Virus record (IMG/VR): IMGVR_UViG_3300019487_000029
Coordinates: 1-64,000 of that record
DNA length: 64,000 nucleotides
DNA from: a virus
Strand: one strand, 5' to 3'
Made by a program: the position numbers and the translations under genes. Below are positions 49,262 through 63,584 of this stretch, in pieces (the first letter of the stretch is position 1; every line of letters starts with the position of its first letter). Under the pieces are notes generated by a model. That model did not search any database. It saw only the letters and a program-made list of their open reading frames with translations, and was not told the origin of the DNA.

Positions 49262-49265
49262 ATTT

Positions 49266-49355: not shown

Positions 49356-49361
49356 TTTTAT

Positions 49362-49437: not shown

Positions 49438-49487
49438 TTTTGTGAGATGCAAAGCAACTCATGCGGGGACGCAAAGCGACCTCAGAG

Positions 49488-49640: not shown

Positions 49641-49642
49641 TT

Positions 49643-49769: not shown

Positions 49770-49774
49770 ATTTT

Positions 49775-49859
49775 GCCCATGTGGATAAGCGAAGCTGGAA
49801 CAAGCAATGTGCTCAAAACACGTCATCCTTTATCCGTTCGAATCGGTTCGTGGGCACCA
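49775..49859 (+). tRNA. tRNA-Leu (CAA)
   Basis: 85 nt. Acceptor GCCCATG/CGTGGGC, A CCA; stem ATGTG/CACGT, loop CTCAAAA; T-loop TTCGAAT. Unusual in that the extra length lies in the D region and the variable loop is only ~8 nt. Sister of the next gene. Confidence 0.85.
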
Positions 49860-49864
49860 ATTTC

Positions 49865-49949
49865 CGTCGTGTGGATAAGCGAAGCTGGCACAAGCAACTT
49901 ACTTAAAATAAGTCATCCTCTATCGGTTCGAATCCGTTCACGACGACCA
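49865..49949 (+). tRNA. tRNA-Leu (TAA)
   Basis: 85 nt, duplicated from the previous gene: acceptor CGTCGTG/CACGACG, A CCA; loop CTTAAAA; T-arm ATCGG-TTCGAAT-CCGTT; same enlarged D region. Confidence 0.87.
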
Positions 49950-49961
49950 ATTTGATACCAA

Positions 49962-50339
49962 ATGGAAAATAGTTACGCCAACGAATCAACGGTGTATGAC
50001 CAATCACCGGCAGTTGAAAAACAACAAATTGATTTTATGCACGAGCTTGGGTTTCGTGCAGTCGCCCGAAAGGATACGTGGGTTTTGTGGGAGATGCAAG
50101 GTTGGCCGGAAGTCTCTGTGTGGCTTCAAGGATTTCAAGTGGATTTGAGTCATCGGTATATTCTGATGCAAGTCTATAAGTCGGGAGTGAACAGTGGAAA
50201 GGAATTTCAAGCAAATGAAATTCGTTTATCGTTGGGACTGTCACCGATGAAGAAGGATGACCTTCTCCGACTGTCCTCATTCGATCATCCGTGGCTTGCG
50301 ATTGAAATGAATCCAAGACACGGGCGACACGAATCATGA
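49962..50339 (+). CDS. Unknown protein (125 aa)
   Basis: MENSYANESTVYDQSPAVEK...; the middle is Trp-rich (KDTWVLWEMQGWPEVSVWLQ). Sits inside the tRNA array and overlaps the next small gene (ATGA). No family recognised. Confidence 0.65.
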   Translation: MENSYANESTVYDQSPAVEKQQIDFMHELGFRAVARKDTWVLWEMQGWPEVSVWLQGFQVDLSHRYILMQVYKSGVNSGKEFQANEIRLSLGLSPMKKDDLLRLSSFDHPWLAIEMNPRHGRHES

Positions 50340-50515
50340 CAACTTGTAGCAATTGTAAGCAAGAACGTGAATTGCCCGATGGCATTTCTTGTGAAGAATG
50401 TTTGATCTACAAACAATATCTTGACAAGGAAGACGAGTATGTTATAGTGACTCGTGAAATGGCAAAAGACGCAGGCGACCTTCAATTGGAAGGTCAACTG
50501 TGGAAGTGGAATTGA
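50336..50515 (+). CDS. Small zinc-finger protein (59 aa)
   Basis: MTTCSNCKQERELPDGISCE followed by ECLIYKQYL gives CxxC...CxxC at the N-terminus. Coupled to the previous gene by ATGA overlap. Confidence 0.6.
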   Translation: MTTCSNCKQERELPDGISCEECLIYKQYLDKEDEYVIVTREMAKDAGDLQLEGQLWKWN

Positions 50516-50519
50516 TTTT

Positions 50520-50585
50520 TTCTCGTTGGTGTAGTGATAGCACACTCCGTAAGGAGAAGCGTTGGCTCTAATCCAATACGAGGAT
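50520..50585 (+). tRNA. tRNA-like RNA with truncated anticodon arm, no CCA
   Basis: Acceptor TTCTCGT/ACGAGGA; D-arm GTGT-AGTGATA-GCAC; T-arm GTTGG-CTCTAAT-CCAAT. The anticodon arm is only CTCC-GTAA-GGAG, a 4-bp stem with a GNRA tetraloop, so it cannot decode. It ends directly before tRNA-Cys. Confidence 0.55.
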
Positions 50586-50587
50586 AT

Positions 50588-50662
50588 GTACCGTTCGTAG
50601 AGTGGCACATGCGATTGGCTGCAACCCTTTAGACGTTGGTTCGATTCCAACACGGTACTCCA
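50588..50662 (+). tRNA. tRNA-Cys (GCA)
   Basis: Acceptor GTACCGT/ACGGTAC, T CCA (T73, as in Cys tRNAs); loop CTGCAAC in an imperfect stem; T-arm GTTGG-TTCGATT-CCAAC. Confidence 0.8.
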
Positions 50663-50729
50663 AATTTGAGTCTAAAACACTCAGTTTCAAGCACTTGTGA
50701 AAAAAGTGCAAGAAAGATGAAAAAGTAGT

Positions 50730-50757
50730 TGACATTTGCCGTGGATGCGGTATAATG
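50730..50757 (+). promoter_or_regulatory. Sigma70 promoter, near consensus
   Basis: TTGACA, 16-nt spacer, TATAAT; ATG 50768 follows after 10 nt. Confidence 0.88.
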
Positions 50758-50767
50758 TCTCTCGTAA

Positions 50768-50962
50768 ATGAAAGTTCGGAACTGTTTTCCGAGCGAAAAG
50801 AAAACTAGCACGCTATTTATTAGCAAGCAAATGAGAACAATGCGATCACAACATAAACAATGGTTTAGCCCCTTGGCAATCAAGGGAGAGAACCTCTCTG
50901 TTCAGATTAGTCTGACAAAGAATGTTTATCTCAATGATCGCCCAGAAGGATTCGGCTCATGA
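50768..50962 (+). CDS. Small protein behind a near-consensus promoter (64 aa)
   Basis: MKVRNCFPSEKKTSTLFISK...; an internal ATG at 50831 is possible. The C-terminal part looks beta-rich (NLSVQISLTKNVYLNDRPEG). Terminator 30 nt downstream. No family recognised. Confidence 0.6.
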   Translation: MKVRNCFPSEKKTSTLFISKQMRTMRSQHKQWFSPLAIKGENLSVQISLTKNVYLNDRPEGFGS

Positions 50963-50991
50963 TGTAACGTACTCACATACCTTACACCAAG

Positions 50992-51019
50992 AGCCGAGGA
51001 AAAAATCCTCGGCTTTTTT
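50992..51019 (+). terminator. Rho-independent terminator
   Basis: AGCCGAGGA-aaaaa-TCCTCGGCT followed by TTTTTG. Confidence 0.93.
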
Positions 51020-51054
51020 GTTGCCCGAAAACAACAAAGAAGAGAAAGAACGCT

Positions 51055-51243
51055 GTGAAAGAAAAAGTTGAATTTGTCGGTGTGGTTTTGAAGGTCAATG
51101 GAAAAGAAGTGACCTTCCCGAAGGAAAAGGTATCCTTTTCTGCTTCGGAAAGTGAGTGCGACTTGTGCGGCTCACATGGCTCAGTGAACTTGAGCGTGGT
51201 TGATGGAAAGAAAGTTCTTGACGTAGAAGTTCACGAGTGGTAA
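51055..51243 (+). CDS. Small protein with CxxC (62 aa)
   Basis: GTG start at 51055 after AAAGAACGCT. Beta-rich (VGVVLKVNGKEVTFPKEKVS) with CDLCGSHG. Just after the terminator. No family recognised. Confidence 0.55.
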   Translation: MKEKVEFVGVVLKVNGKEVTFPKEKVSFSASESECDLCGSHGSVNLSVVDGKKVLDVEVHEW

Positions 51244-51261
51244 GTTGAGAAAGTAGATTTT

Positions 51262-51380
51262 GATAGGTTTACATGGTGTTGTTCAACCTAGAAAAAGCAC
51301 CCGTAGAGGCGAGCCGTGGGAAATCGGAGACGCCGGTATCAGTGGGGACACTGATGCTACCAACGAAGGTTCACAAATCC
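51262..51380 (+). ncRNA. Candidate structured RNA
   Basis: TAGGTT/AACCTA hairpin (a related one, TAGGTTAA/TTAACCTA, recurs at 53650), then GGCG/CGCC and ATCAGTG-ggga-CACTGAT helices. No coding signal. Confidence 0.45.
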
Positions 51381-51387
51381 CTTTAAT

Positions 51388-51774
51388 TTAGGGAACAAAT
51401 GCAATACCTGCATGAACTTCCCGATGGCAATTAGCACAAAGAAGATTGCATTTTTTAATCTCTTCCTTTGCCACATCAATGGATGCAAGTCGCAACAGTT
51501 CGGAAACTGATTCTAACTTGGTTGTCATATCTTTGTGATGAAATTCCAATGCGTTTAGACAACGGTTGTAGCCACAAATTTGGCATTTACCTCCACCAAG
51601 TTCTTTTAACAATGTCAAGTTGTTACGGCGACTTTTTGATTTTCGTTTTTGGGCACATTCTTTGTAATGTGGAGAGCAATGATAGCGGATCGTGCTCATG
51701 GATGCTCCCGTTATTTTTTCAATGGCAGAATATGATTTGCCTTCGCCTCTCAATTTCAAAATTTGTTCTTTCAT
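51388..51774 (-). CDS. HNH homing endonuclease (type C)
   Basis: 128 residues from ATG 51774. The N-terminal KLRGEGKSYSAIEKITGASM is a resolvase-like helix-turn-helix, then GGGKCQICGYNRCLNALEFH and CNLLCANCHREVHAGI form the HNH core. On the opposite strand to the tRNAs. Confidence 0.88.
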   Translation of the reverse strand: MKEQILKLRGEGKSYSAIEKITGASMSTIRYHCSPHYKECAQKRKSKSRRNNLTLLKELGGGKCQICGYNRCLNALEFHHKDMTTKLESVSELLRLASIDVAKEEIKKCNLLCANCHREVHAGIAFVP

Positions 51775-51837
51775 AAGTGTTGTGGCGAGTCTTATGTTGT
51801 CTCGCCATACATAAATAGTTTTCAAAAAACATAAAAT

Positions 51838-51914
51838 GGGATGCAAGCTCTAATAGTGGTAAGCTACCGGCTTTTAACCGGAAGGACACGGGGCAGTACC
51901 GTGGCGTCCTACCA
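51838..51914 (+). tRNA. tRNA-Lys (TTT), elbow variant
   Basis: Acceptor GGGATGC/GCGTCCT, A CCA; stem CCGG/CCGG, loop CTTTTAA; T-arm CACGG-GGCAGTA-CCGTG. D-loop longer (AATAGTGGTA). Confidence 0.85.
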
Positions 51915-51965
51915 ATTTTCAAACCCTTTAACGTGTTTTGGAGACTATAAGAAATATGTAGTCTT

Positions 51966-52310
51966 ATGCCAACAGAACAATGGAGAAAAGAACATGTTAA
52001 AAAATTGCGACAATATCGTCGCCAGTGGTATGCTTCTAACAAAAGACATGCCAAGAAAAAGATTATTCAACGTAAGGAAGAATTAAAGCGATGGATGGAT
52101 ACTCTCAAAGAAACTCTTCAATGTAATTGTGGAGCATCACACGTTGCTGTTCTTACGTTTCATCATCGTGATCCTAAGAAAAAAGAAATAGAAGTATCAC
52201 GAGCAGTTGCCGATGGATGGAGCAAAGAACGAATTTTGAAAGAGATTGAAAAGTGTGATGTTCTTTGTAGAAATTGTCATGCAATTATTCATTGGGAAGA
52301 AAACAAATAG
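51966..52310 (+). CDS. HNH homing endonuclease (type C, short)
   Basis: 114 residues. Basic helical N-terminus (RKEHVKKLRQYRRQWYASNK), then CNCGASHVAVLTFHHRDPKK and CDVLCRNCHAIIHWEEN. Its TAG stop overlaps the first two nucleotides of the following tRNA-Trp. Confidence 0.88.
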   Translation: MPTEQWRKEHVKKLRQYRRQWYASNKRHAKKKIIQRKEELKRWMDTLKETLQCNCGASHVAVLTFHHRDPKKKEIEVSRAVADGWSKERILKEIEKCDVLCRNCHAIIHWEENK

Positions 52311-52381
52311 GCGGGGTGCCAGCAGCACAGTAGAGTCTCCAAAACTCAGCTTGGTCGGGGCAGCACCGACTCCGCTTGCCA
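52309..52381 (+). tRNA. tRNA-Trp (CCA), elbow variant
   Basis: Acceptor AGGCGGG/TCCGCTT, G73, CCA; stem GAGT/ACTC, loop CTCCAAA; T-arm GTCGG-GGCAGCA-CCGAC; reduced D-loop with AGCA. Confidence 0.82.
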
Positions 52382-52437
52382 ATTTGCGGAAACAGCGTGC
52401 GTCTGAAAAGACGAGGGTCGCTACCGCCACAATTTAT

Positions 52438-52508
52438 AGGCAGTTGCTTTAGAAGCAGACCGAACTCCAAATCCGGTTAAGTGGGAGCGTAACCTACACT
52501 GCCTGCCA
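52438..52508 (+). tRNA. tRNA-Trp (CCA), elbow variant, second
   Basis: Acceptor AGGCAGT/ACTGCCT, G73, CCA; loop CTCCAAA; T-arm GTGGG-AGCGTAA-CCTAC; very short D-arm (GCTT-TAG-AAGC). A tRNA-like scrap (GCGG/CCGC) lies between the two Trp genes. Confidence 0.8.
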
Positions 52509-52509
52509 A

Positions 52510-52768
52510 TTTCTCGTTTAGTGTATATTAACACTTCAAGGTAACTGAGGATATACGTAAAGGCTACATATAAATCCTTAACGCAACAATGCGATGGGCA
52601 ACCATAAAAAACGTGAGCCAGCAGAAAGGCAGAAAGGCTGGACAGGCGTTGCGGATGCTAAGGTAGCACAATATCGTAAAAAGTAGGGGAAGTAGATTTG
52701 CTTGTAGCACAGAAGGCACCCGCACATCGCATTTGAGCCTTCAGGAGTTGGAACGCCAACACGAGAAA
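52510..52768 (+). ncRNA. Structured RNA with small ORF
   Basis: TTTCTCGT pairs with ACGAGAAA around ~245 nt. Inside, ATG 52594 to TAG 52686 encodes a 30-residue basic peptide (MGNHKKREPAERQKGWTGVA...). Could be an mRNA leader, an ncRNA, or both. Confidence 0.4.
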
Positions 52769-52776
52769 ATTTTTAT

Positions 52777-52851
52777 GGTGATGTTGTTGTAATAGTAGCA
52801 TCCTAGCTTGTGAAGCTTGTAGAGCGGGAGCGTAACCCGTACATCACCCCA
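52777..52851 (+). tRNA. tRNA-His (GTG), elbow variant
   Basis: Extra G at -1 opposite C73 (tRNA-His hallmark), acceptor GTGATGT/ACATCAC, CCA; loop TTGTGAA; T-arm GCGGG-AGCGTAA-CCCGT; D-loop AATAGTA. Confidence 0.88.
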
Positions 52852-52860
52852 ATTTCAATT

Positions 52861-52934
52861 GCCTCGGTCGTATAATGGTATTATGCGACTTTCGTAAAGT
52901 TGAGACGGGGGTTCGATTCCCTTCCGAGGCTCCA
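52861..52934 (+). tRNA. tRNA-Thr (CGT)
   Basis: Acceptor GCCTCGG/CCGAGGC, T CCA; stem CGACT/AGTTG, loop TTCGTAA; canonical T-loop. Confidence 0.93.
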
Positions 52935-52977
52935 TTTAAGTTGTAGTTTTGAACCATTGAATCATATTTATTAGAAT

Positions 52978-53478
52978 ATGACAATACTTCGAGAATGCAA
53001 CCAATGTGGTAATAGTTTAACTAAACGGTGGCAAACGAAATTTTGCTCTTCAGAATGTTCTGCTACCTATAACAATTTACATCATAAAACTGGCAGATTC
53101 AAACATGGAATGTTTACAAAAAAATTGTGTAAAGAATGTGGCAATGAAACAAAAAACCGAAAATACTGTTCGTCTGAGTGTGCGAATAAAGGAAGAAAAA
53201 AAGAATGGGAGCAGAAACTCCAAACCGGAAAAATCACTTATTCATACACAAATGGACAAGTTCGAAAATGGTTGTTAAACAACAGAGAACATAAATGTGA
53301 AAGTTGTCATCTTACAGATTGGTTGGATAAACCAATAAATTTGACAATGGAACATAAAGATGGGAATGCTTGCAATAACATTCCTGAAAATTTAATGCTT
53401 TTGTGTTGGAATTGTCATAGTATGACGTTGACGTTTGGCCGTAAAAACATAAATGGCACACGACATTACAGAAAATAA
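52978..53478 (+). CDS. HNH homing endonuclease (type D)
   Basis: 166 residues. Several zinc pairs (CNQCG, CSSEC, CKECG), then CESCHLTDWLDKPINLTMEH followed by KDGNACNNIPENLMLLCWNC, the HNH core shared with 54406 and 61390. ATG is 6 nt after ATATTTAT. Confidence 0.9.
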   Translation: MTILRECNQCGNSLTKRWQTKFCSSECSATYNNLHHKTGRFKHGMFTKKLCKECGNETKNRKYCSSECANKGRKKEWEQKLQTGKITYSYTNGQVRKWLLNNREHKCESCHLTDWLDKPINLTMEHKDGNACNNIPENLMLLCWNCHSMTLTFGRKNINGTRHYRK

Positions 53479-53496
53479 TCTCTGAAATAAATCAAT

Positions 53497-53570
53497 TTGG
53501 TTCTTCATTCGGTGAACCAGAAGTAATGCCCTTTCCACAAGGTCATGTAAATCTTCAAAAACCGACTTCT
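53497..53570 (+). ncRNA. Hairpin RNA upstream of tRNA-Lys
   Basis: GGTTC/GAACC, and CCAGAAGT pairing with ACTTCTGG, which runs into the tRNA-Lys 5' end; the two structures may compete. Confidence 0.35.
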
Positions 53571-53645
53571 GGTCTCTAAACTTTGATGGTGAAGCACTGG
53601 CTCTTAACCAGTTGGAACTCGGTTCGAGTCCGAGAGGGACCACCA
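53571..53645 (+). tRNA. tRNA-Lys (CTT)
   Basis: Acceptor GGTCTCT/AGGGACC, A CCA; stem CTGG/CCAG, loop CTCTTAA; canonical T-loop TTCGAGT. Confidence 0.92.
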
Positions 53646-53683
53646 ATTTGATAGGTTAATCAATGTTCGGTTAACCTAGTGGA

Positions 53684-53763
53684 ATGAGATAGATGTGAAA
53701 GCCGCAAGCTCCACAGAACAAGTGAGACATTTGCAAGACGGTGCAACTCCGTTGCGATCTCAG
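53684..53763 (+). ncRNA. Possible tRNA-like RNA without CCA
   Basis: TGAGAT pairs with ATCTCA; a T-arm-like hairpin GACGG-TGCAACT-CCGTT lies just before the 3' strand. No convincing anticodon arm, no CCA. Confidence 0.35.
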
Positions 53764-53788
53764 TGTGAAATCCTCAGAAAACTATTTC

Positions 53789-53864
53789 GGGCCAGTAGCA
53801 TCAATGTAATGCGTCTCACTTGCAATGAGAAAATTGCGGGTTCAAGTCCCGCCTGTGTCCACCA
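53789..53864 (+). tRNA. tRNA-Ala (TGC)
   Basis: Stem CTCA/TGAG, loop CTTGCAA; T-arm GCGGG-TTCAAGT-CCCGC; A CCA. Acceptor GGGCCAG/TGTGTCC has two mismatches but keeps G3-T70, the Ala identity pair. D-loop CAATGTA. Confidence 0.75.
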
Positions 53865-53869
53865 ATTTG

Positions 53870-53957
53870 TAAAGTGAAAGACAGAATATGTCAGAGAGCG
53901 AGTAAACACTCGGTCAACATAGCAATGGCTCTTCATGTTGAGAACATGACACTTCAC
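53870..53957 (+). ncRNA. Structured RNA
   Basis: Several helices: GACA/TGTC, GCGAGT/ACTCG, AGAGC/GCTCT, CATGTT-gag-AACATG. No tRNA fold. Confidence 0.4.
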
Positions 53958-53959
53958 AT

Positions 53960-54037
53960 CTCTCCGTCGCCTAACTTGGTATGGCACTTGATTTGGGGTC
54001 AAGAATAATGTAGGTTCAAATCCTATCGGGGAGACCA
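53960..54037 (+). tRNA. tRNA-Pro (TGG)
   Basis: Acceptor CTCTCCG/CGGGGAG, A CCA; stem CTTGA/TCAAG, loop TTTGGGG; canonical T-loop TTCAAAT and GG in the D-loop. Confidence 0.88.
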
Positions 54038-54043
54038 ATTTAT

Positions 54044-54124
54044 CGTCTGATCGTCTAAAACCTAAGACACCAACACTGTACTAACGTTGGAGATGCGTGG
54101 ATGAAGTCATGACAACGACGACCA
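54044..54124 (+). tRNA. Possible tRNA-Tyr (GTA), aberrant
   Basis: D-arm GTCT-AAAACCTA-AGAC; stem CCAAC/GTTGG with an 11-nt loop containing CTGTA; A CCA end. Acceptor only partly paired and no regular T-stem. Could be a degraded gene. Confidence 0.4.
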
Positions 54125-54129
54125 ATTTG

Positions 54130-54235
54130 AGCTAGTAGGTAAGTAAGCCCCGGAAGGGGACACTAGGAGCGAAACTCTGCTTAGACCCCCGTGTGAACGG
54201 TGTGGGAGGCTACCTTCGGTATCTAATTTGAGATA
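54130..54235 (+). ncRNA. Structured RNA
   Basis: Nested helices: TAGGT/ACCTT-side pairing, TAAGC/GCTTA, CCCC-ggaa-GGGG, GAG-cgaa-CTC. No CCA or ORF. Followed by alternative GTATCT/AGATAC and GAGATAC/GGTATCTC pairings. Confidence 0.4.
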
Positions 54236-54293
54236 CTAACAGCAACCAAAAAACTTGTTTATTCAACAAACCAAAAAATGGTATCTCGCTTTT

Positions 54294-54368
54294 GGGCATA
54301 TAAAGTAAGAGGAACCTACCTGTCTGTCACACAGGAGTTCGTGAGTGCGATTCTCCGTATGCCCGCCA
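54294..54368 (+). tRNA. tRNA-Asp (GTC), elbow variant
   Basis: Acceptor GGGCATA/TATGCCC, G73 (Asp identity), CCA; stem CCTGT/ACAGG, loop CTGTCAC; T-loop TGCGATT with a bulged T in the stem (CG-T-GAG/CTCCG); D-loop AAGAGGA. Confidence 0.88.
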
Positions 54369-54405
54369 ATTTGAACTTGACATGTTTTTCCATTTATACG
54401 ATAAT

Positions 54406-54858
54406 GTGAAAATGATATATCAGGTTGTCTGTCCATATTGTAAAAATGAGTTTGCGTGTCCTAAAAATAAGGATACTAGATTCTGTTCAAAACGATGTTG
54501 GGGAAATTTTCAAGTCGAAGCTCGTCTCATTAAAAACTCTATCTATGATAAATCCATTCGTGGATGGTGTTATAGACATCTTGAACAAAAATGTTATGAA
54601 TGTGGTCAAAGTACTCAATGGAATAATAAACCATTGAGATTACAAGTAAACCACAGAAATGGCAATACTCGTGACAATCGCCGCAGTAACTTGGGAATGA
54701 TTTGCCCAAATTGCCACACTCAAACAGAAAATTGGGGTGTAAAGAATGCATCAGAAAAAGGAAAGCTGAAAATGGTTGAGGGAGCAGCACTGATGCGGAA
54801 ATCAAATTTGGGGTCGAGGAAGAACAGCAGACTCGCCTGCCTGTCACGCAGGAGATAG
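54406..54858 (+). CDS. HNH homing endonuclease (type D)
   Basis: About 150 residues from GTG 54406 (ATG 54412 also possible). CPYCKNEFACPKNKDTRFCS knuckle, then CYECGQSTQWNNKPLRLQVN and MICPNCHTQT. Its last ~16 codons run into the following tRNA-Asp (54810), so the C-terminus is shared sequence. Confidence 0.88.
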   Translation: MKMIYQVVCPYCKNEFACPKNKDTRFCSKRCWGNFQVEARLIKNSIYDKSIRGWCYRHLEQKCYECGQSTQWNNKPLRLQVNHRNGNTRDNRRSNLGMICPNCHTQTENWGVKNASEKGKLKMVEGAALMRKSNLGSRKNSRLACLSRRR

Positions 54859-54885
54859 CGGGGGCAGCACCCGTCGATCCCGCCA
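54810..54885 (+). tRNA. tRNA-Asp (GTC), elbow variant, second
   Basis: Acceptor GGGGTCG/CGATCCC, G73, CCA; stem CCTGC/GCAGG, loop CTGTCAC; T-arm GCGGG-GGCAGCA-CCCGT; D-loop AACAGCA but a weak D-stem. Overlaps the HNH gene end. Confidence 0.82.
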
Positions 54886-54887
54886 TT

Positions 54888-54961
54888 CGTCATATAACTC
54901 AATAGTAGAGCAGCCGCCCGATAAGCGGAAGACCGTGGAGCGTAACCACGTATGACGACCA
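54888..54961 (+). tRNA. tRNA-Ile (GAT), elbow variant
   Basis: Acceptor CGTCATA/TATGACG, A CCA; stem CCGC/GCGG, loop CCGATAA (C33 instead of U33); T-arm CGTGG-AGCGTAA-CCACG; D-loop AATAGTA. Starts 2 nt after tRNA-Asp. Confidence 0.83.
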
Positions 54962-54964
54962 TTT

Positions 54965-55040
54965 CGCTCCGTAGCTCATTCAGCAGAGCGTTCTCTTGAT
55001 AAGGGAAGGGTGGTTGGAGCAAAGCCAACCGGAGCGACCA
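54965..55040 (+). tRNA. tRNA-Ile (GAT), elbow variant, second
   Basis: Acceptor CGCTCCG/CGGAGCG, A CCA; stem TTCTC/GGGAA, loop TTGATAA; T-arm GTTGG-AGCAAAG-CCAAC; D-loop ATTCAGCA. Confidence 0.87.
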
Positions 55041-55046
55041 ATTTAT

Positions 55047-55120
55047 GGGTTTACAGAGAGTACAAACTCTGTTAGTCAGCCTTGTCTTAAAAACGTTTGA
55101 CGAGGCAAGCCATCCGATTT
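55047..55120 (+). ncRNA. Two-hairpin RNA
   Basis: ACAGAG/CTCTGT and GCCTTGTC/GACGAGGC hairpins between tRNA-Ile and tRNA-Gln. Confidence 0.4.
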
Positions 55121-55123
55121 CAT

Positions 55124-55199
55124 TCCCGTTTCAAGTATAAAAGTAGTACGCATGGCTTTGAACCATGAGGCGGTGGGGCAGTACCATCAACGGGAGCCA
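55124..55199 (+). tRNA. tRNA-Gln (TTG), elbow variant
   Basis: Acceptor TCCCGTT/AACGGGA, G73, CCA; stem CATGG/CCATG, loop CTTTGAA; T-arm GGTGG-GGCAGTA-CCATC; D-loop AAAAGTA; 4-nt acceptor/D linker. Confidence 0.85.
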
Positions 55200-55337
55200 A
55201 TTTACGGGGGTGTCGGAGCAGCGGAGTTCTAAGAACCATTCATGAGTGGAGTATCTGACGTTGAAGCTGTGCCTATTCCCCATCTTAATTTCTGTCTCAT
55301 ATACAATAGGAAGACGGTGTGTTGATCCTTCGCATGT

Positions 55338-55412
55338 CGGGCGTGAGGAAGACAGCAATCCGCACCGTTTGGGACGGTGAGACACTGAGGGCAGCACTCA
55401 GACGCCCGACCA
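55338..55412 (+). tRNA. tRNA-Pro (TGG), elbow variant
   Basis: Acceptor CGGGCGT/ACGCCCG, A CCA; stem CACCG/CGGTG, loop TTTGGGA; T-arm CTGAG-GGCAGCA-CTCAG; D-loop GACAGCA. Same anticodon as the canonical tRNA at 53960. Confidence 0.88.
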
Positions 55413-55418
55413 CTTTTT

Positions 55419-55505
55419 GCACTTGTCGTCAAATTGGATTGGCAGCAGCCTACGAAGCTGTGTAGCGAAAGCTCTATGAGAGTTCGAATCTCTCCAAGTG
55501 TACCA
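55419..55505 (+). tRNA. Long-variable-arm tRNA with anticodon ACG
   Basis: 87 nt. Acceptor GCACTTG/CAAGTGT, A CCA; stem CAGC/GCTG, loop CTACGAA; variable hairpin AGC-gaaa-GCT; T-arm GAGAG-TTCGAAT-CTCTC; D-loop with GG. Arg anticodon on a Ser/Leu-type shape. Confidence 0.75.
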
Positions 55506-55511
55506 TTTTAT

Positions 55512-55587
55512 GCTCTCGTGGTGAAATTGGACATCACGCAACCCTGCGAAGGTTGAGTTTCCAGTTCGACTCTGGACGTGAGCACCA
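55512..55587 (+). tRNA. tRNA-Arg (GCG)
   Basis: Stem CAACC/GGTTG, loop CTGCGAA; T-arm TCCAG-TTCGACT-CTGGA; acceptor GCTCTCG/CGTGAGC with one mismatch; A CCA. Confidence 0.88.
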
Positions 55588-55590
55588 ATT

Positions 55591-55683
55591 TCAAACACAA
55601 CCCCAGACGTGGGTGGACAAAACGCAAAAAACTGCGACCGCTTGAATAACATATAGATGAATACGTGGCATTGACGTGTTTGA
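55591..55683 (+). ncRNA. tRNA-like RNA, no CCA
   Basis: TCAAACAC pairs with GTGTTTGA; inner hairpins CCC/GGG, CGCA-aaaaac-TGCG and ACGT-ggcattg-ACGT (T-arm-like loop with GGCA). Not a decodable tRNA. Confidence 0.45.
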
Positions 55684-55687
55684 TTAT

Positions 55688-55762
55688 GGGGAGGATAGTG
55701 AAGTGGCATCACACAACTATGACACAGTTGAAACATCCGTTCGATTCGGAACCACCCTACCA
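55688..55762 (+). tRNA. tRNA-Val (GAC)
   Basis: Stem CAACT/AGTTG, loop ATGACAC; T-loop TTCGATT; acceptor GGGGAGG/CCACCCT (one mismatch); A CCA. Confidence 0.87.
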
Positions 55763-55768
55763 ATTTAT

Positions 55769-55843
55769 GGCCCTGTAGTGCAAGAGAAGCACGGTTGGCT
55801 TTCAACCAACAAATCGTGAGTGCAACGCTCCGCAGGGCTACCA
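55769..55843 (+). tRNA. tRNA-Glu (TTC), elbow variant
   Basis: Acceptor GGCCCTG/CAGGGCT, A CCA; stem TTGG/CCAA, loop CTTTCAA; T-loop TGCAACG with bulged T in CG-T-GAG/CTCCG; D-loop AAGAGAA. Confidence 0.88.
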
Positions 55844-55849
55844 ATTTCC

Positions 55850-55922
55850 GCTCCTGTAAGATAATGTAGTCCCTTCGCCTGATTAGCGTTGTATATCGGT
55901 TCAAGTCCGGTCGGGAGCACCA
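55850..55922 (+). tRNA. tRNA-Ile (GAT), third
   Basis: Acceptor GCTCCTG/CGGGAGC, A CCA; stem CGC/GCG (two T-T mismatches outside), loop CTGATTA; T-loop TTCAAGT; D-loop AATGTA. Confidence 0.82.
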
Positions 55923-55931
55923 ATTTCATAT

Positions 55932-56017
55932 GCCTCACTATACCTCTAAAGATGGGGTTCTGACTGTAAATCAGACGCCTTCGGGCTGGGTAGGTGCAAT
56001 ACCTACGTGGGGCACCA
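55932..56017 (+). tRNA. tRNA-Tyr (GTA), elbow variant
   Basis: Acceptor GCCTCAC/GTGGGGC, A CCA; stem TCTGA/TCAGA, loop CTGTAAA; variable hairpin GCC-ttcg-GGC; T-arm GTAGG-TGCAATA-CCTAC. Confidence 0.9.
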
Positions 56018-56022
56018 TTTTC

Positions 56023-56181
56023 GGGGATGTGGGCAAGAGTGACGAAAGCCATCGGCATTAGAAGCCGTGAACAACTCCTTAGTAAGTAACTGTGAGGTAG
56101 GGGATAAACTAGGATAAACCCCTTGCATAGATTGCTGATCAGGAGCGAACATCGCAGGTTCAAATCCTGCTGTCCCCACCA
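56023..56181 (+). tRNA. tRNA-Leu (TAG) with giant variable arm
   Basis: Acceptor GGGGATG/TGTCCCC, A CCA; D-arm GGC/GCC; stem CGGC/GCCG, loop ATTAGAA; T-arm GCAGG-TTCAAAT-CCTGC. The variable region is ~85 nt, apparently closed by CTCCT/AGGAG and containing a GGGG/CCCC hairpin. An inner GGGGATA at 56100 could also pair with the 3' acceptor strand, so an inserted second tRNA is an alternative. Confidence 0.6.
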
Positions 56182-56207
56182 CTTTCAGAAAACCAAACAA
56201 AAAACAT

Positions 56208-56360
56208 ATGAATCTAGGACACATTCTCGGCAAAAAGCGTAATCGTCTCAGTCGTTGTGGAAAGCGTCTCGCCTCCAAAGAGTTGACGGCAGACCAACGT
56301 TCTCGTATTACGCAACGAGCGGCAGACTTGGAGAAAGAACTTCGAGTTGCCAAAAAGTAA
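56208..56360 (+). CDS. Small basic protein (50 aa)
   Basis: ATG 56208 to TAA 56360: MNLGHILGKKRNRLSRCGKR..., Lys/Arg-rich, helical C-terminus. Between tRNA-Leu and an HNH gene. No family recognised. Confidence 0.6.
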   Translation: MNLGHILGKKRNRLSRCGKRLASKELTADQRSRITQRAADLEKELRVAKK

Positions 56361-56401
56361 GCTTGGCATAACTTTCACTGTTATGCCAACTATGTATAGT
56401 C

Positions 56402-56761
56402 ATGGAAAAGATTATACAAAAAGAATGCGAATATCATGGAGTAACGGATTATATCCTTGAAGGAAGAGGAACCCATCGGTGCCGCAAATGCCGAAGTGAA
56501 CGAGTAAGTCGATGGAGAAAAAATAATAAGGAAAGGTTGGTTGCGGAATTTGGGGGAGCGTGTAAAATTTGTGGTTACAACAAATGTGTGGGAAATATGG
56601 TGTTCCATCATATGGACCCAATGCAAAAGGGGTTTTCAATTGCAGAAAAAGGAAACACCATTTCGTATGAGCGATTAAAAAAAGAAGCTCAAAAATGCAC
56701 TTTACTTTGTTGTCGCTGTCATGGAGAAGTTCATGCAGGTTTGACCTTTATTCCAGTGTGA
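56402..56761 (+). CDS. HNH homing endonuclease (type C)
   Basis: 119 residues. CRKCRSERVSRWRKNNKERL, then GGACKICGYNKCVGNMVFHH and CTLLCCRCHGEVHAGL. The last 10 nt of the gene, including the TGA stop, form the 5' end of the next tRNA-Asn. Confidence 0.9.
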   Translation: MEKIIQKECEYHGVTDYILEGRGTHRCRKCRSERVSRWRKNNKERLVAEFGGACKICGYNKCVGNMVFHHMDPMQKGFSIAEKGNTISYERLKKEAQKCTLLCCRCHGEVHAGLTFIPV

Positions 56762-56825
56762 TGAAACAGTATCATGCCAAGCTGTTACCTTGGACTTCTT
56801 CGGGCGGAACGAAGCACTAGAGCCA
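56752..56825 (+). tRNA. tRNA-Asn (GTT), elbow variant
   Basis: Acceptor TCCAGTG/CACTAGA (one mismatch), G73, CCA; D-arm ATGA-AACAGTA-TCAT; stem CCAAG/CTTGG, loop CTGTTAC; T-arm CTTCG-GGCGGAA-CGAAG. Overlaps the HNH stop. Confidence 0.88.
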
Positions 56826-56853
56826 TTTCGCAGTTTGGATCATATTTATACGT

Positions 56854-57180
56854 ATGAATGAGTCTGATCTTCAAGCCCTAATCAAACAGGTTCGTAAAGA
56901 AACTCTCAACGAAGAGCTTATGAACCTTGACAAACTTACCGATGGAATATCAACCGTCTCGTTGGTCGGTAAGGAATGGAACAAGTTGATTTCCGGGTTG
57001 GAAGGTCTTTTGAACGAGACTAAGGATTTCAATCAAATGTATTCAGCAGCACTGCATGGTCCTCAACCAAATACCGGCGGGGCAATGGTGAACTTGGCAA
57101 TGATTCTGAAGTTGTTAGGGGCTATCAAGCCCGTGGTCCTTGGTATGGATGACATTCAGAAAAAAGACATGTATTCATGA
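56854..57180 (+). CDS. Unknown helical protein (108 aa)
   Basis: MNESDLQALIKQVRKETLNE...; mainly helical. ATG is 4 nt after ATATTTAT. Overlaps the next gene (ATGA). No family recognised. Confidence 0.7.
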   Translation: MNESDLQALIKQVRKETLNEELMNLDKLTDGISTVSLVGKEWNKLISGLEGLLNETKDFNQMYSAALHGPQPNTGGAMVNLAMILKLLGAIKPVVLGMDDIQKKDMYS

Positions 57181-57539
57181 TTAGACTGAGACAACTCGTT
57201 AAAGAAAACTCATACGAGCAGTTTTCATGGTTGGACCCCGATGGAAATTTCCACGTTGTTCCAACTGAAGGACATTCGGCGTTCGCCAAGGAAATGCTGA
57301 ATAAACTGAGAATGCCGTCGTCAGATGTCTATGGAACCATGTACGATTTGGGATGGGTCCGAGTGACCATGTTTGGTTACATGGGTCAATACGGAGTGCA
57401 TTTCAATCTTCGAAAAGGTAAGCGTCCTACGTCAATTCAAAAAGATGCTCTGATTGATCTTGCAAAACGGAACGGGGCGTATGAGATAATTGACGACACA
57501 AACGGAGGCGTCGCTTACACAGATGAATTTTGGGAATAA
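57177..57539 (+). CDS. Unknown alpha/beta protein (120 aa)
   Basis: [20 protein letters not shown]...; the middle has [20 protein letters not shown]. Coupled to the previous gene; the next gene starts 5 nt later. No family recognised. Confidence 0.7.
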
Positions 57540-57543
57540 CAAT

Positions 57544-58218
57544 ATGAAACGAAAAAATGGATTTACGTTGATCGAACTGTTGGTAGTGATTGCTATCATT
57601 GCAATCCTTGCCGCCATGTTACTGCCCGCTTTGTCAAAGGCAAAGGGGTCTGCACAAAAGATTCAATGTGTGAACAACATCCGTCAACTCGGAATGTCTG
57701 CAAAGATGTATGCCGATGAAAACGATGACAAGTTCATGCCTCGCTTGGGTGGAGCACAGAACTTTTGGCCAGCACAGTTGAGCAATTACATTGCTACGCC
57801 TACGTTTTTGCGTTGTCCGTCCGATGTTTCAAAACCAGCTACGTTTGGGGCGGGTGATCCAAATGCATACATTTCGGCACCACGAAGTTTCATCTTCAAT
57901 GGATTCAACGACTATTTCAAAAAAGACCTGACCGACAATTCTCCGCTTCCGCAAGGGGCTGAGATGCCAGAGTCCGCAATTCAACAGAGTAGCGAAACCA
58001 TTCTCTTCGGAGAAAAGGAATCAAACTCTGGTCACTATTGGATGGACTATTGGCAAGGCGATGACTACCGAGAAGTAGAACAGGTTCGTCACAACGGTAG
58101 TTCAAACTATGCGTTTGATGACGGTAGTGCTAGGAGTCTCCGATTCGGCGAATCTTTCATACCAGTCAATCTCTGGTTCGTCAAAGAAGAATGGAGAAAC
58201 TTGGGTGCTGCATTTTAA
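57544..58218 (+). CDS. Pilin-like protein with prepilin and H-X9-DG motifs
   Basis: 224 residues from ATG 57544 (an upstream in-frame ATG at 57490 lies inside the previous gene). [20 protein letters not shown] is a class III prepilin signal with the conserved Glu5; the C-terminal [14 protein letters not shown] fits H-X9-DG. This pair is abundant in Verrucomicrobia, Lentisphaerae and Planctomycetes and rare elsewhere, so the gene was probably acquired from such a host. It might decorate the virion or interfere with host pseudopili. Confidence 0.92.
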
Positions 58219-58220
58219 TT

Positions 58221-58304
58221 GGGAGTTAGGACTAATGATGGTCGCTTGGCTGTAAACCAAGTAACATGCATGTGTAGGTGGTTCGATTCCGCCAACTCCC
58301 ACCA
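58221..58304 (+). tRNA. tRNA-Tyr (GTA)
   Basis: Acceptor GGGAGTT/AACTCCC, A CCA; stem CTTGG/CCAAG, loop CTGTAAA; variable arm ACATGCATGT; canonical T-loop. Begins 2 nt after the pilin-like gene's stop. Confidence 0.93.
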
Positions 58305-58331
58305 CTTTACATCCCTACTCCGAGGCAATCT

Positions 58332-58466
58332 ATGTGTATGAAGTGCTTGAAACATTAGCCAGACGTAGTAATACACGAAGACGGAGAATGGTTGCAGCTA
58401 CCATTCATTAAAAGATTGTTTGATGTATTTATGCCACGTAAAACTTGCAAGCTTTTCGTTTCATGA
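58332..58466 (+). CDS. Small ORF with in-frame TAG
   Basis: ATG 58332 reads MCMKCLKH, TAG at 58356-58358, then continues in frame as PDVVIHEDGEWLQLPFIKRL... to TGA 58466. A protein-like sequence on both sides of one TAG; may be a nonsense mutant or chance. Confidence 0.3.
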
Positions 58467-58485
58467 GCGAAAAGGAGTGGCACCA
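58433..58485 (+). tRNA. tRNA-like RNA lacking a T-arm (CAT loop)
   Basis: GCCAC/GTGGC, A CCA, with an 8-bp hairpin CTTTTCGT/GCGAAAAG carrying loop TTCATGA. Only ~53 nt; no T-arm. Overlaps the ORF at 58332. Confidence 0.4.
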
Positions 58486-58492
58486 CTTTCAT

Positions 58493-58587
58493 TGGCAGTT
58501 ACTCTAATTGGTAAGAGATCAGGTTGTTACCCTGACGTAATCGGTAGAAATAACCGTATGGAGGTTCAAGTCCTTTGCTGCCAGCCA
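58493..58587 (+). tRNA. Long-variable-arm tRNA with anticodon GTT
   Basis: 95 nt. Acceptor TGGCAGT/GCTGCCA, G73, CCA; stem TCAGG/CCTGA, loop TTGTTAC; variable arm CGGT-agaaata-ACCG; T-arm GGAGG-TTCAAGT-CCTTT. Asn anticodon on a type II shape. Confidence 0.82.
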
Positions 58588-58635
58588 TTTTACTAAAATA
58601 AGTAATTAACCACTATTGGTTAACTATTTATTACC

Positions 58636-59202
58636 ATGTCAAAACAAAGTCAAAGAGTCATTGATTGGAGACGCAGAACCAAAGAACGTATAATTCAAGC
58701 ATTTGGAGGTTCCTGTGGAATTTGTGGCTATAACAAATGCCAACGGTCGTTAGACATTCATCATCTTAACCCTTTGCAGAAAGAGTTTTCGTTGGCAAGT
58801 ATTCGGGCTTGGCCAAAAGCATGGACATCAATTGTAGTTGAGTTACGTAAGTGTGTGTTGCTTTGTAAAAATTGTCACGGAGAAGTTCATGATAATGTAA
58901 CACAGATTCCTTTTAGCATATCAAAATTTGATGAATCATTTTCCGATTACAAAACGCTTCGATCTCTTGACAAAAAAAGCAAAACAACTAAAAATTGCCC
59001 TGTTTGTAAAGCCGAAATGTTTGCAGCGTCAAAGACATGTTCCAAATCCTGTGCAGCAACCTTGTCGTGGTCAATAGATTGGGATAAAATTGACTTATAT
59101 GATTTGATTGTCAATCAAAAGAAATCTCAATATTCAGTTGCAAAAATGTTAGGATGTTCACCCGCAGCGGTGTGGAAGCGTATAAAAAAGTTAATTCCAT
59201 AG
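58636..59202 (+). CDS. HNH homing endonuclease (type C, long)
   Basis: 188 residues. GGSCGICGYNKCQRSLDIHH and CVLLCKNCHGEVHDNV give the HNH core; a second zinc ribbon (CPVCKAEMFAASKTCSKSC) and a C-terminal helix-turn-helix (YSVAKMLGCSPAAVWKRIKK) provide DNA binding. ATG is 4 nt after TATTTAT. Its TAG overlaps the next tRNA-Asn. Confidence 0.92.
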   Translation: MSKQSQRVIDWRRRTKERIIQAFGGSCGICGYNKCQRSLDIHHLNPLQKEFSLASIRAWPKAWTSIVVELRKCVLLCKNCHGEVHDNVTQIPFSISKFDESFSDYKTLRSLDKKSKTTKNCPVCKAEMFAASKTCSKSCAATLSWSIDWDKIDLYDLIVNQKKSQYSVAKMLGCSPAAVWKRIKKLIP

Positions 59203-59268
59203 TAGCTCAATGGTAGAGCTTGGCTGTTAACCGAATGGTTCTTGGTTCGAGTCCAGTTGTTAGGGCCA
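59196..59268 (+). tRNA. tRNA-Asn (GTT), damaged acceptor
   Basis: D-arm GCTC-AATGGTA-GAGC; loop CTGTTAA; T-loop TTCGAGT; G CCA. The 5' acceptor strand, which lies inside the HNH gene end, pairs poorly with TGTTAGG, suggesting the HNH insertion replaced it. Confidence 0.65.
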
Positions 59269-59275
59269 AATTAAA

Positions 59276-59345
59276 TCGCCGTGGATGGTATCGCCCATCC
59301 GTAGAAATAATAAGTTCTTAGTGTTAAGATGCGGCGTAAATCATT
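59276..59345 (+). ncRNA. Three-helix RNA
   Basis: CGCCG/CGGCG closing stem, GGATGG/CCATCC and TCTTA/TAAGA hairpins. Confidence 0.4.
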
Positions 59346-59495
59346 TCTAGTTTTCAACACCGAAAAATATCACTGCTCGCAAGAAGTAGTGAATTCACAC
59401 AGGCATGATGTCTGTGTGACGCATGTTGACTTGTTACGGCTGAAATCGAACATGAATATGGGACGACGTTAGCCATATTAAAAACCGTCTTTAAT
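59345..59495 (+). ncRNA. Multi-hairpin RNA
   Basis: TCACT/AGTGA, TCACACAG/CTGTGTGA and AATATGG/CCATATT hairpins in series. No ORF, no CCA. Confidence 0.45.
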
Positions 59496-59572
59496 GCTAT
59501 CGTGGTGATAATGGAATCATGCTTGGCTTCGAACCAAGAGAATAGGGGGTTCGATTCCCTCCGGTAGCACCA
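59496..59572 (+). tRNA. tRNA-Arg (TCG)
   Basis: Acceptor GCTATCG/CGGTAGC, A CCA; stem CTTGG/CCAAG, loop CTTCGAA; canonical T-loop and D-loop. Confidence 0.93.
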
Positions 59573-59576
59573 ATTT

Positions 59577-59672
59577 GGAAAAGGTAGTGTCAGAGTGGTT
59601 TATTGTGCCGTCGTGCAGACGGGCGAAATGGTAAAACATTTCCGTGGGTTCGAATCCCACTTATCTTTTCCG
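59577..59672 (+). tRNA. Ser-type tRNA with shortened anticodon loop, no CCA
   Basis: Acceptor GGAAAAG/CTTTTCC, G73, then CAC instead of CCA; Ser-like D-arm; variable arm GAAATG/CATTTC; T-loop TTCGAAT. Anticodon hairpin CCGTC-gtgca-GACGG has a 5-nt loop and no Ser anticodon. Confidence 0.6.
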
Positions 59673-59675
59673 CAC

Positions 59676-59753
59676 CCCGCTTGAGCTAGTGCGGTCATTC
59701 AGCACTCGCCTGAAGAGCGAGACAACTCGGTTCGACTCCGAGAGGCGGGACCA
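59676..59753 (+). tRNA. tRNA-Phe (GAA)
   Basis: Acceptor CCCGCTT/AGGCGGG, A CCA; stem CTCGC/GCGAG, loop CTGAAGA; canonical T-loop. Confidence 0.9.
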
Positions 59754-59757
59754 ATTT

Positions 59758-59973
59758 ATGAAATTCATCTGCGATACCAAACGACATCTTGTGTGTGAGC
59801 CATATTCGCTTGACAATTTGCACAAGATGGCGGATACTCTTGGAATCAAAAAATGTTGGTTTCACAAGGATCATTACGACATTCCTAAGAAACGGATTGT
59901 CGAAATCACCGCAAAATGCGAAGTAGTTTCAAGCAAAGAGATTGTGAAACTAATCAAAACCGGAAATAGCTGA
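59758..59973 (+). CDS. DUF4031-like protein (71 aa)
   Basis: MKFICDTKRHLVCEPYSLDN, then HKMADTLGIKKCWFHKDHYD resembles the short DUF4031 family (LHxxAxxLGxxxxWFxxxHYD). Function of the family unknown. Its last 14 nt form the 5' end of a tRNA-Phe. Confidence 0.7.
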   Translation: MKFICDTKRHLVCEPYSLDNLHKMADTLGIKKCWFHKDHYDIPKKRIVEITAKCEVVSSKEIVKLIKTGNS

Positions 59974-60034
59974 GATAGATTAGCGTTAGTCTGAAAAACT
60001 AAAGAGGTCGGAGCGTTACCGACATTCCGGGCCA
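59960..60034 (+). tRNA. tRNA-Phe (GAA), elbow variant
   Basis: Acceptor CCGGAA/TTCCGG, G73, CCA; stem TTAGT/ACTAA, loop CTGAAAA; T-arm GTCGG-AGCGTTA-CCGAC. 5' end lies inside the preceding gene. Confidence 0.82.
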
Positions 60035-60223: not shown

Positions 60224-60347
60224 AAGATGCGGACAGCGAACCAAATGCTATGAAGAACCCTGTGTCGGTGTGTTCGAATCCACCCTCCACGACCAATACC
60301 GTGGGGTAGCTCAGTGGTAGAGCAGGGGTATGCAAAAAACGCATCTT
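60224..60347 (+). tRNA. Circularly permuted tRNA, probably Phe (GAA)
   Basis: Order: closing strand AAGATGCG; 3' half with anticodon-stem strand ACCCT (60257-60261), T-arm GGTG-t-G/TTCGAAT/CCACC, acceptor 3' strand CTCCACG, A CCA (60293-60295); 4 nt; 5' half with acceptor CGTGGGG (60300-60306), TA, D-arm GCTC-AGTGGTA-GAGC, A, stem GGGGT; closing strand CGCATCTT. The acceptor (7 bp) and anticodon stem (5 bp) pair only in permuted order. Loop nucleotides 60250-60256 give GAA. Confidence 0.75.
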
Positions 60348-60352
60348 GTTTT

Positions 60353-60473
60353 TGTGTTGATAAATATAGGAACTAAATGCGGTTCGATTCCGCTTAATCT
60401 CTGGAGAGCGTGTGGGTGCGACTCCCACTTTAAGGAAAAGCATCCGGCGTGGTTCAAATCCATGTATTAACAC
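60353..60473 (+). ncRNA. RNA with three T-arm-like hairpins
   Basis: Closing stem GTGTTGATA/TATTAACAC (9 bp with one G-T). Inside: GCGG-TTCGATT-CCGC, GTGGG-TGCGACT-CCCAC and CGTGG-TTCAAAT-CCATG. No anticodon arm or CCA. Confidence 0.55.
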
Positions 60474-60651: not shown

Positions 60652-60784
60652 TAGATACGGACAGCAAGAAAAACTCTTATGTCAAACCGCTAATGTGGGT
60701 GAAAATCCCGCCTGAGCCGCCAGATGGCTCGGTCGTCTAATTTAGGACAGCGGTCCCGAAAGGGAAGAAAAAAACCGTATCTAG
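60652..60784 (+). tRNA. Circularly permuted tRNA-Asp (GTC)
   Basis: Closing stem TAGATACGG/CCGTATCTA (9 bp). 3' half: loop ATGTCAA with GTC at 60681-60683, stem strand ACCGC, T-arm GTGGG-TGAAAAT-CCCGC, acceptor CTGAGCC, G73, CCA (60720-60722). After GAT: 5' half with acceptor GGCTCGG (60726-60732), TC, D-arm GTCT-AATTTA-GGAC, A, stem strand GCGGT (60750-60754), then a CCCGAAAGGG hairpin. All helices pair fully only in permuted order; G73 and GTC agree with Asp. Confidence 0.82.
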
Positions 60785-60790
60785 TTTTTT

Positions 60791-60874: not shown

Positions 60875-60996
60875 GCCACTTATGCATACGGGTGCGATCC
60901 CCGTACGGTCCACCAAACGGGCTGTCCTAGCGGAACAAATAGCTACAGCAACGGGTTTAGCTGACCTAGACGGTGCGATTCCGTCAAGTGGCTCCA
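60875..60996 (+). tRNA. Interleaved tRNA pair
   Basis: Outer acceptor GCCACTT (60875)/AAGTGGC (60986) with T-arm GACGG-TGCGATT-CCGTC and T CCA. Inside: T-arm ACGGG-TGCGATC-CCCGT, acceptor ACGGTCC, A CCA (60913-60915), AAC, then acceptor GGGCTGT (pairs with ACGGTCC, including G3-T70), D-arm TAGC/GCTA and one anticodon-like hairpin CAGC/GCTG. Two acceptors and two T-arms share one D-arm. Confidence 0.5.
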
Positions 60997-61000: not shown

Positions 61001-61104
61001 AGGTGCCCGTTTCTACAGCAAATCCCAAAAGGAAAAGTAATCCACTTGTAATGGAAAACCAGTTGGGTTCAAACCCCGACACCCTCGGAAGAGGTTGGGC
61101 ATCT
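61001..61104 (+). ncRNA. tRNA-like RNA with 8-bp closing stem, no CCA
   Basis: AGGTGCCC/GGGCATCT; inner hairpins TCCA-CTTGTAA-TGGA (anticodon-like TGT), GTTGGG-TTCAAAC-CCCGAC (T-arm) and CCTC-ggaa-GAGG. Confidence 0.5.
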
Positions 61105-61115
61105 AGTTTTCATAT

Positions 61116-61249
61116 GGGCGTGTGGCGGAATAGCAGACGCACCGAGTTGAGTTCGGCGTTGAGTAAGTTGACATATTGGATGTGACGACCACTTTGATGA
61201 TATGTCTAGTCTCAACATTACAGGTGTCAAATCCTGTCGTAGCCCACCA
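61116..61249 (+). tRNA. tRNA-Ser (TGA) with giant variable arm
   Basis: Acceptor GGGCGTG paired with CGT-a-GCCC (bulged A), A CCA; D-arm GCG/CGC with AATAGCAGA; stem CCGA/TCGG, loop GTTGAGT; variable arm ~65 nt, helices GTTGAG/CTCAAC and GACATAT/ATATGTC; T-stem ACAGG/CCTGT with an 8-nt loop. Confidence 0.6.
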
Positions 61250-61253
61250 TTTT

Positions 61254-63304: not shown

Positions 63305-63460
63305 TGGAATAGGAACGTCAGAGATAGACATCCCGTCGATAGTTTATGTGGTAAAACGTCGCTTTCACAGCGAAGAAGCGGTATTCAAGCTCCGCAAGAC
63401 CTTGTGTGGATGGAACTCAAAGTCGCAGACGTGCGACCCCGTGGAATCCTCTGATGGAGA
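63305..63460 (+). ncRNA. tRNA-derived region
   Basis: D-arm GTTT/AAAC, anticodon-like hairpin TCGC-TTTCACA-GCGA (would read TCA), GCGG/CCGC T-arm-like hairpin, then GTCGCA-gacg-TGCGAC. No matching acceptor or CCA; probably decayed or non-decoding. Confidence 0.4.
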
Positions 63461-63462
63461 TA

Positions 63463-63546
63463 GACGGTAATGCTAGTATGTGGGTTCGAATCCCACCTTC
63501 CCCACCATTTACGGGGAAGTCAGCATAAATGGCTAATGCTCGGCAC
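63463..63546 (+). tRNA. Probable third circularly permuted tRNA
   Basis: T-arm GTGGG-TTCGAAT-CCCAC, acceptor CTTCCCC, A CCA (63505-63507), TTTAC, then acceptor GGGGAAG (perfect 7-bp match), TC, D-arm AGCA/TGCT with GG. Anticodon-stem strands ATGCT and GGCAC pair at four of five positions; loop ACGGTAA suggests GGT. No closing stem seen. Confidence 0.6.
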
Positions 63547-63584
63547 GCTGGAACACGATTGAAATCCTCCCCTACTCTATTTTC

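Follow-up and report, generated by a model that had tools for sequence, protein, structure and literature searches.

A 122-nt stretch within the tRNA gene array of a large phage holds tRNA-like parts with two acceptor stems, one nested within the other. Does it encode two tRNAs sharing parts, an evolutionary intermediate towards permutation, as an earlier note had offered, or an RNA of another kind? The window analysed here covers 64,000 nucleotides of a virus record 65,620 bases long, and the dense array lies at about 48.5–63.5 kb. ARAGORN called 22 tRNAs in the array, Rfam gave 23 tRNA matches and one tmRNA, which lies apart at 29802–30208, and a search for T-arm, acceptor and NCCA returned more than 40 tRNA-like sites. 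At the stretch in question, here called element c, ARAGORN called nothing, and Rfam scans found neither a tRNA (RF00005), at the gathering score or at E up to 5, nor a ribozyme at a lax threshold. Distant blastn against known phages gave ordinary tRNAs only, among the matches listed.

Anatomy of element c

Element c is built as an outer acceptor stem enclosing a second, rearranged tRNA top half (Table 1). Its description in the earlier note as a GCCACTT/AAGTGGC pair around a complete T-arm and CCA, followed by an outer T-arm and a second CCA, is accurate in every part. So is that of the second acceptor, with ACGGTCC preceding GGGCTGT: all seven pairs form (five Watson–Crick, G3:U70 and U5:G68), and this order is conserved and common to neighbouring genes. 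A D-arm and a single anticodon-like hairpin had also been proposed; both hairpins are present, but in neither phage known to carry c, the window phage and that of contig L002, is there an anticodon loop of 7 nt with U at position 33 (and a purine at 37), so the second hairpin is not an anticodon arm as drawn. Its loop is AACGGGTTTA in the window, or TAGCT in the MFE fold, and 8 or 15 nt in L002, depending on register. No anticodon-stem strand was found in the inner 3' half of c.

Table 1 Element c, its parts and its permuted or related neighbours, in window coordinates
Feature	Position	Strand	Remarks
Element c, nested tRNA-like RNA gene, 122 nt	60875..60996	+	Homologue L002:4850-4975
Outer acceptor 5' strand GCCACTT	60875..60881	+	7/7 Watson–Crick with 60986-60992; identical in L002
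T-arm 1 ACGGG-TGCGATC-CCCGT	60888..60904	+	Sequence
Inner acceptor 3' strand ACGGTCC (60905-60911), then A and CCA	60905..60915	+	CCA is TCA in L002
Inner acceptor 5' strand GGGCTGT	60919..60925	+	Permuted order, 3 nt after CCA (linker AAC); G3:U70
D-like hairpin TAGC-GGAACAAATA-GCTA	60928..60945	+	GGTT/AACC at the corresponding place in L002
Single hairpin CAGC-AACGGGTTTA-GCTG	60946..60963	+	MFE fold favours GGGTT-TAGCT-GACCT
T-arm 2 GACGG-TGCGATT-CCGTC (60969-60985), outer acceptor 3' strand AAGTGGC (60986-60992), T73 and CCA (60993-60996)	60969..60996	+	
Permuted tRNA-like RNA (a)	60226..60353	+	Basal stem GATGCG/CGCATC, ACCCT, T-arm, CTCCACG-ACCA, CGTGGGG, D-arm GCTCAGTGGTAGAGC, GGGGT; orthologue L002:3786-3908
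Permuted tRNA-like RNA (b)	60654..60790	+	Basal stem GATACGG/CCGTATC, ACCGC, T-arm, CTGAGCC-GCCA, GGCTCGG, D-arm, GCGGT; fold z -4.8; orthologues L002:4383-4514, L016:9291-9415
Related RNA (d)	61002..61110	+	Basal stem GGTGCCC/GGGCATC, T-arm, closed hairpin CCTC-GGAA-GAGG; without CCA; orthologue L002:4981-5081
Permuted module (e)	63480..63540	+	T-arm, CTTCCCC-ACCA, GGGGAAG, D-arm; orthologues L002:7356-7410, L016:13170-13230

MFE folds of both copies contain the outer helix, both T-arms, the inner acceptor, the D-like hairpin and one further hairpin, the L002 fold consisting of the window's outer helix plus five hairpins. Enforcing four helices (outer, both T-arms and inner acceptor) costs no more than 1 kcal/mol over the optimum in either copy, and the best alternative 7-mer for the inner strand in either element pairs at only 5/7 positions. 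The folding-energy z is -1.5 for the window copy and -2.4 for that of L002; folding energy alone is not strong evidence for c.

The second copy and the competing explanations

Contig L002, whose SpoU methylase within the array is 68% identical, carries the nested layout between tRNA genes at nearly the same place, directly 5' of its orthologue of element d. The two copies agree exactly in the outer stem, the ATG that follows it and the TCCA, and differ in the interior. On a hand-made structural alignment, used because MAFFT misplaces the inner 5' strand by one base, the five helices show 10 pairs with double-sided changes, 1 with a one-sided change, 2 broken and 15 unchanged; leaving out the D-like arm, for which the register was picked separately in each phage and is somewhat different between the copies, gives 6 double-sided, 1 one-sided and 2 broken. 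By helix, the outer acceptor has 7 unchanged pairs; T-arm 1 has 3 unchanged, 1 doubly changed and 1 broken; the inner acceptor 3 unchanged (including G3:U70), 1 one-sided, 2 double and 1 broken; the D-like arm 4 double changes; and T-arm 2 has 2 unchanged and 3 doubly changed. Within each phage the two T-loops are of one type (TGCGATY in the window, TTCRAYT in L002), which is what linked parts should show. With its layout kept through compensatory changes in two phages, the only two in which it is known, c looks like a maintained structured RNA. To call it an evolutionary intermediate captures a permuted order that is real, but understates this conservation.

As neither copy has a usable anticodon, c points to an RNA that imitates tRNA rather than to two overlapping tRNAs. 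The interpretation we favour, with modest confidence, is a maintained, non-decoding tRNA mimic in which a YrlA-like permuted module is set on a tRNA acceptor/T-arm minihelix. The minihelix would be formed by GCCACTT, T-arm 2 and AAGTGGC-TCCA, with the D/anticodon half replaced by the permuted second tRNA top half and one hairpin; the inner module would comprise T-arm 1, an inner acceptor closed by a 7–8-nt loop, and the D-like arm. Enzymes acting on tRNA ends would recognise the outer acceptor/T stack and cut c out of the array transcript, with predicted cleavage by RNase P at G60875 and 3' processing at CCA-60996. The freed RNA may then act, when bound by proteins that recognise tRNA, as a mimic, decoy or scaffold, taking no part in decoding.

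The main rival, which we judge unlikely, is that c is what remains of two tandem tRNAs, a decaying relic in which the first has lost its D and anticodon arms while the acceptors, alike at the start, still cross-pair. The likeness of the T-arms within each phage would fit an origin by tandem duplication and agrees with this account, as do the missing anticodon loop in both copies and an array rich in odd tRNA-like pieces. The inner and outer acceptors nevertheless differ in sequence and each is paired in both phages, the double-sided changes outnumber the broken pairs across the two copies known, and the outer stem, ATG and TCCA have stayed identical; the compensatory changes thus disfavour a relic.

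Alternative processing, by which two CCA-ended RNAs would share the D arm and the hairpin, yielding two charged tRNAs or a two-headed RNA, is improbable. Both acceptor/T stacks resemble RNase P substrates, both carry CCA in the window phage, and the inner one combines G3:U70 with A73, the alanine identity. The proposal of two tRNAs sharing parts is nonetheless not supported: both phages lack an anticodon loop with U33, and L002 has TCA in place of the inner CCA. For these reasons it is unlikely that one or two tRNAs from c decode, and either product would lack parts of a tRNA. The two-headed form, in which a cut at the inner acceptor would leave one body with two acceptor/T-arm stacks, each with a 3' CCA, is similarly doubtful; if true, each end of a single molecule could undergo charging or binding.

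Permuted tRNA genes occur in red algae and Thermofilum. That c is a permuted or intron-bearing gene of the red-algal or archaeal kind, cut and joined into one decoding tRNA, is very improbable. As in those genes, the T-arm 3' half lies upstream of the D-arm 5' half, the inner acceptor has its 3' half before its 5' half with a CCA-like sequence between them, and in the neighbours (a) and (b) a CCA is retained between the two halves, together with an anticodon-like stem. Against this, the inner 3' half of c lacks an anticodon-stem strand, there is no candidate anticodon, no RtcB gene (PF01139) was found on ten contigs, and c differs from the red-algal and Thermofilum genes in having no anticodon loop or recognisable splice motif and in being nested in another acceptor stem. 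Permuted tRNA is also mentioned in PMC3400036. The permuted, two-piece tmRNA (RF04321) likewise has acceptor pieces in permuted order with G3:U70, but the match reaches 13.3 of 47 bits over model positions 36–93 of 213 only, there is no mRNA-like tag region, and the phage already has its separate tmRNA.

Chance pairing among adjoining pieces of ordinary tRNAs, to which the two G–U pairs of the inner acceptor and the 6/7 pairing of GGACCGG at 60808, in the preceding tRNA, with ACGGTCC would lend themselves, is scarcely credible given that the layout recurs in L002 and that 4 of 53 T-arm+NCCA sites in the array have a downstream partner within 5 nt (7/7 pairs, at least 5 of them Watson–Crick), whereas 0.25 would be expected from reassigning acceptor strands across the 53 sites. 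Element c is one of the four, and the other three, in the same array, are stronger cases. A partner with seven Watson–Crick pairs 90–200 nt upstream occurs by chance at 1.2% of sites. Among 2,109 T-arm+NCCA sites scanned in the collected sequences, the full nested layout occurs only at c and its L002 homologue, and an IMG/VR pattern scan for the outer stem matched L002 only, plus an apparent chance match (L089) in a protein gene.

Permuted neighbours and the comparison with YrlA

The permuted order is not unique to c: array genes (a) (here taken as 60226-60345), (b) (60654-60781) and (e) share it, with compensatory changes, in up to three phages. The acceptors of (a) (2 phages) and (b) (3 phages) vary in sequence and are always 7/7 paired, and the discriminator and CCA are kept in all copies, as A-CCA for (a) in 2/2 phages and as G-CCA for (b) in 3/3; module (e) is present in 3 phages, with its CCA lost in L002. 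The anticodon-like stem of (a) is GGGGT/ACCCT in the window and AGAGT/ACTCT in L002. Common to (a), (b) and (d) is a basal stem with CAGCAA on its 5' side (CAGCGA in the window copy of (a)), followed by C-T(A/T)G(T/C)TTT. The pattern of this motif also matches four other viral contigs: L011, L012 and L014 have closed-acceptor permuted modules without CCA, and the fourth is L013. Pattern scans of IMG/VR for the tails of (a) and (b) matched L002 alone, and the basal-stem motif, sought in bacterial genomes, matched once (L090), a match judged to be chance. The possibility was weighed that A-rich and U-rich stretches of the CAGCAA...CTAGTTTT elements form a pseudoknot.

In YrlA, a bacterial Y RNA, a stem joins the RNA ends and the tRNA-like domain resembles the D, T and acceptor arms (PMC8394870; the Salmonella structure is PDB 6CU1, as cited there), and the RNA is modified by DusA and TruB (PMC8394870). 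TruB could not act on the T-loops of c in the window, which have G at position 55. The Rfam model of YrlA, RF02553, has the arm order T, acceptor, D; the same T-arm, closed acceptor and D-arm within a basal stem are seen across elements (a), (b) and (c) and the window, L002, L011, L012, L014 and L016, and module (e) has this order with a basal stem recognised by eye only. Only gene (a) matches the model, over its whole length, at E 2.6e-5 and 31.4 bits, against a gathering score of 69, and its L002 copy scores 16.5 bits; the Rfam scan gave no match of element c to RF02553.

Element c thus resembles YrlA in its permuted T-arm, closed acceptor and D-arm within an end-joining stem, and in its proposed role as a non-decoding tRNA mimic. 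It differs in that a tRNA acceptor, complete with T-arm and CCA, serves as its basal stem, and in that its inner loop carries CCA in the window phage; in (a), (b) and (d), the motif of the basal stem (CAGCAA ... CTAGTTTT) departs from the YrlA consensus. Some jumbo phages encode Ro60/TROVE (PMC7824862; PMC7765460), and a search of the ten contigs, apparently pieces of larger genomes, turned up no TROVE/Ro60 gene (PF05731). Because (a) falls under the cut-off, its basal stem differs and no Ro60 gene was seen on these fragment-like contigs, we speak of likeness to YrlA rather than membership: (a), (b), (c) and (e) may work like the tRNA-mimic part of YrlA, and no claim is made that they belong to that family.

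Permuted tRNA-like modules are already known in bacterial Y RNAs, and YrlA binds Rsr and PNPase. The literature searched described no phage tRNA cluster in which several permuted modules occur, CCA lies within the acceptor loop of some, and one sits inside a tRNA acceptor stem; standard tRNA finders miss these permuted genes. If expressed, they would be natural phage-made tRNA mimics, directly testable as decoys for tRNA-cutting defences or as binding partners of host Ro60/PNPase.

Two further repeated arrangements were seen. One is an RNA family built on a GATAC-type basal stem; its 5' side bears CAGCAA or CCGCAA, C-T(A/T/C)G(T/C)TTT usually follows the stem, a tRNA-like insert may or may not be present, and a tRNA often lies just downstream (window 54232-54285; L003 5011-5063 and 10717-10776; L012 4497-4604 and 5590-5720; L016 about 12831-12890 and 16645-16797). 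The other, recognised by eye, is the motif (stem)-GATAGAC ... GTGAAATCC-(stem), which encloses tRNA-like pieces including module (e) (window 63313-63570 and 53685-53775; L002 3424-3580 and 7240-7450; L016 13020-13280).

An alternative tRNA elbow in these arrays

In the tRNAs of the arrays of these phages, T-loop bases 55–56 covary almost perfectly with D-loop bases 18–19 in two groups of loci (Fisher p 5e-8 and 2e-6). A script counted TC with GG in 76 tRNAs and GC with AG in 15, to which inspection adds 2; a few tRNAs stay unclassified, and one TC tRNA from outside the clade was scored AG. T-loops with G55 (AGCGTAA, GGCAGYA and TGCRANY) accompany A18-G19, and TTC T-loops accompany G18-G19; the listing of window tRNAs shows this covariation too. 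The alternative elbow is found in about 14 tRNA genes at 48542-60034 of the window (for example 49188, 52778, 54888, 54965 and 55124) and, beyond it, in L002, L008, L011, L013 and L014, and ARAGORN missed most of these genes. The swap occurs even within permuted gene (a), which has TTC and GG in the window, TGC and AG in L002. T-loop base 55 has been called universally conserved in a review (PMC4810234), and the covariation may be of more weight than element c.

Other unusual sequences are present in or near these arrays. L002 13410-13800, RNA-looking, contains AGTACGAGAGGA, the sarcin–ricin loop sequence of 23S rRNA, which the window lacks. At L002 11380-12530, inside the tRNA array, an open frame is a candidate for a TnpB-type transposon-associated protein, as recognised by eye. 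Three tRNA-like genes of about 130–156 nt with CCA (window 61118-61252 and 56023-56178; L002 4710-4842) apparently have long inserts in the anticodon or variable region.
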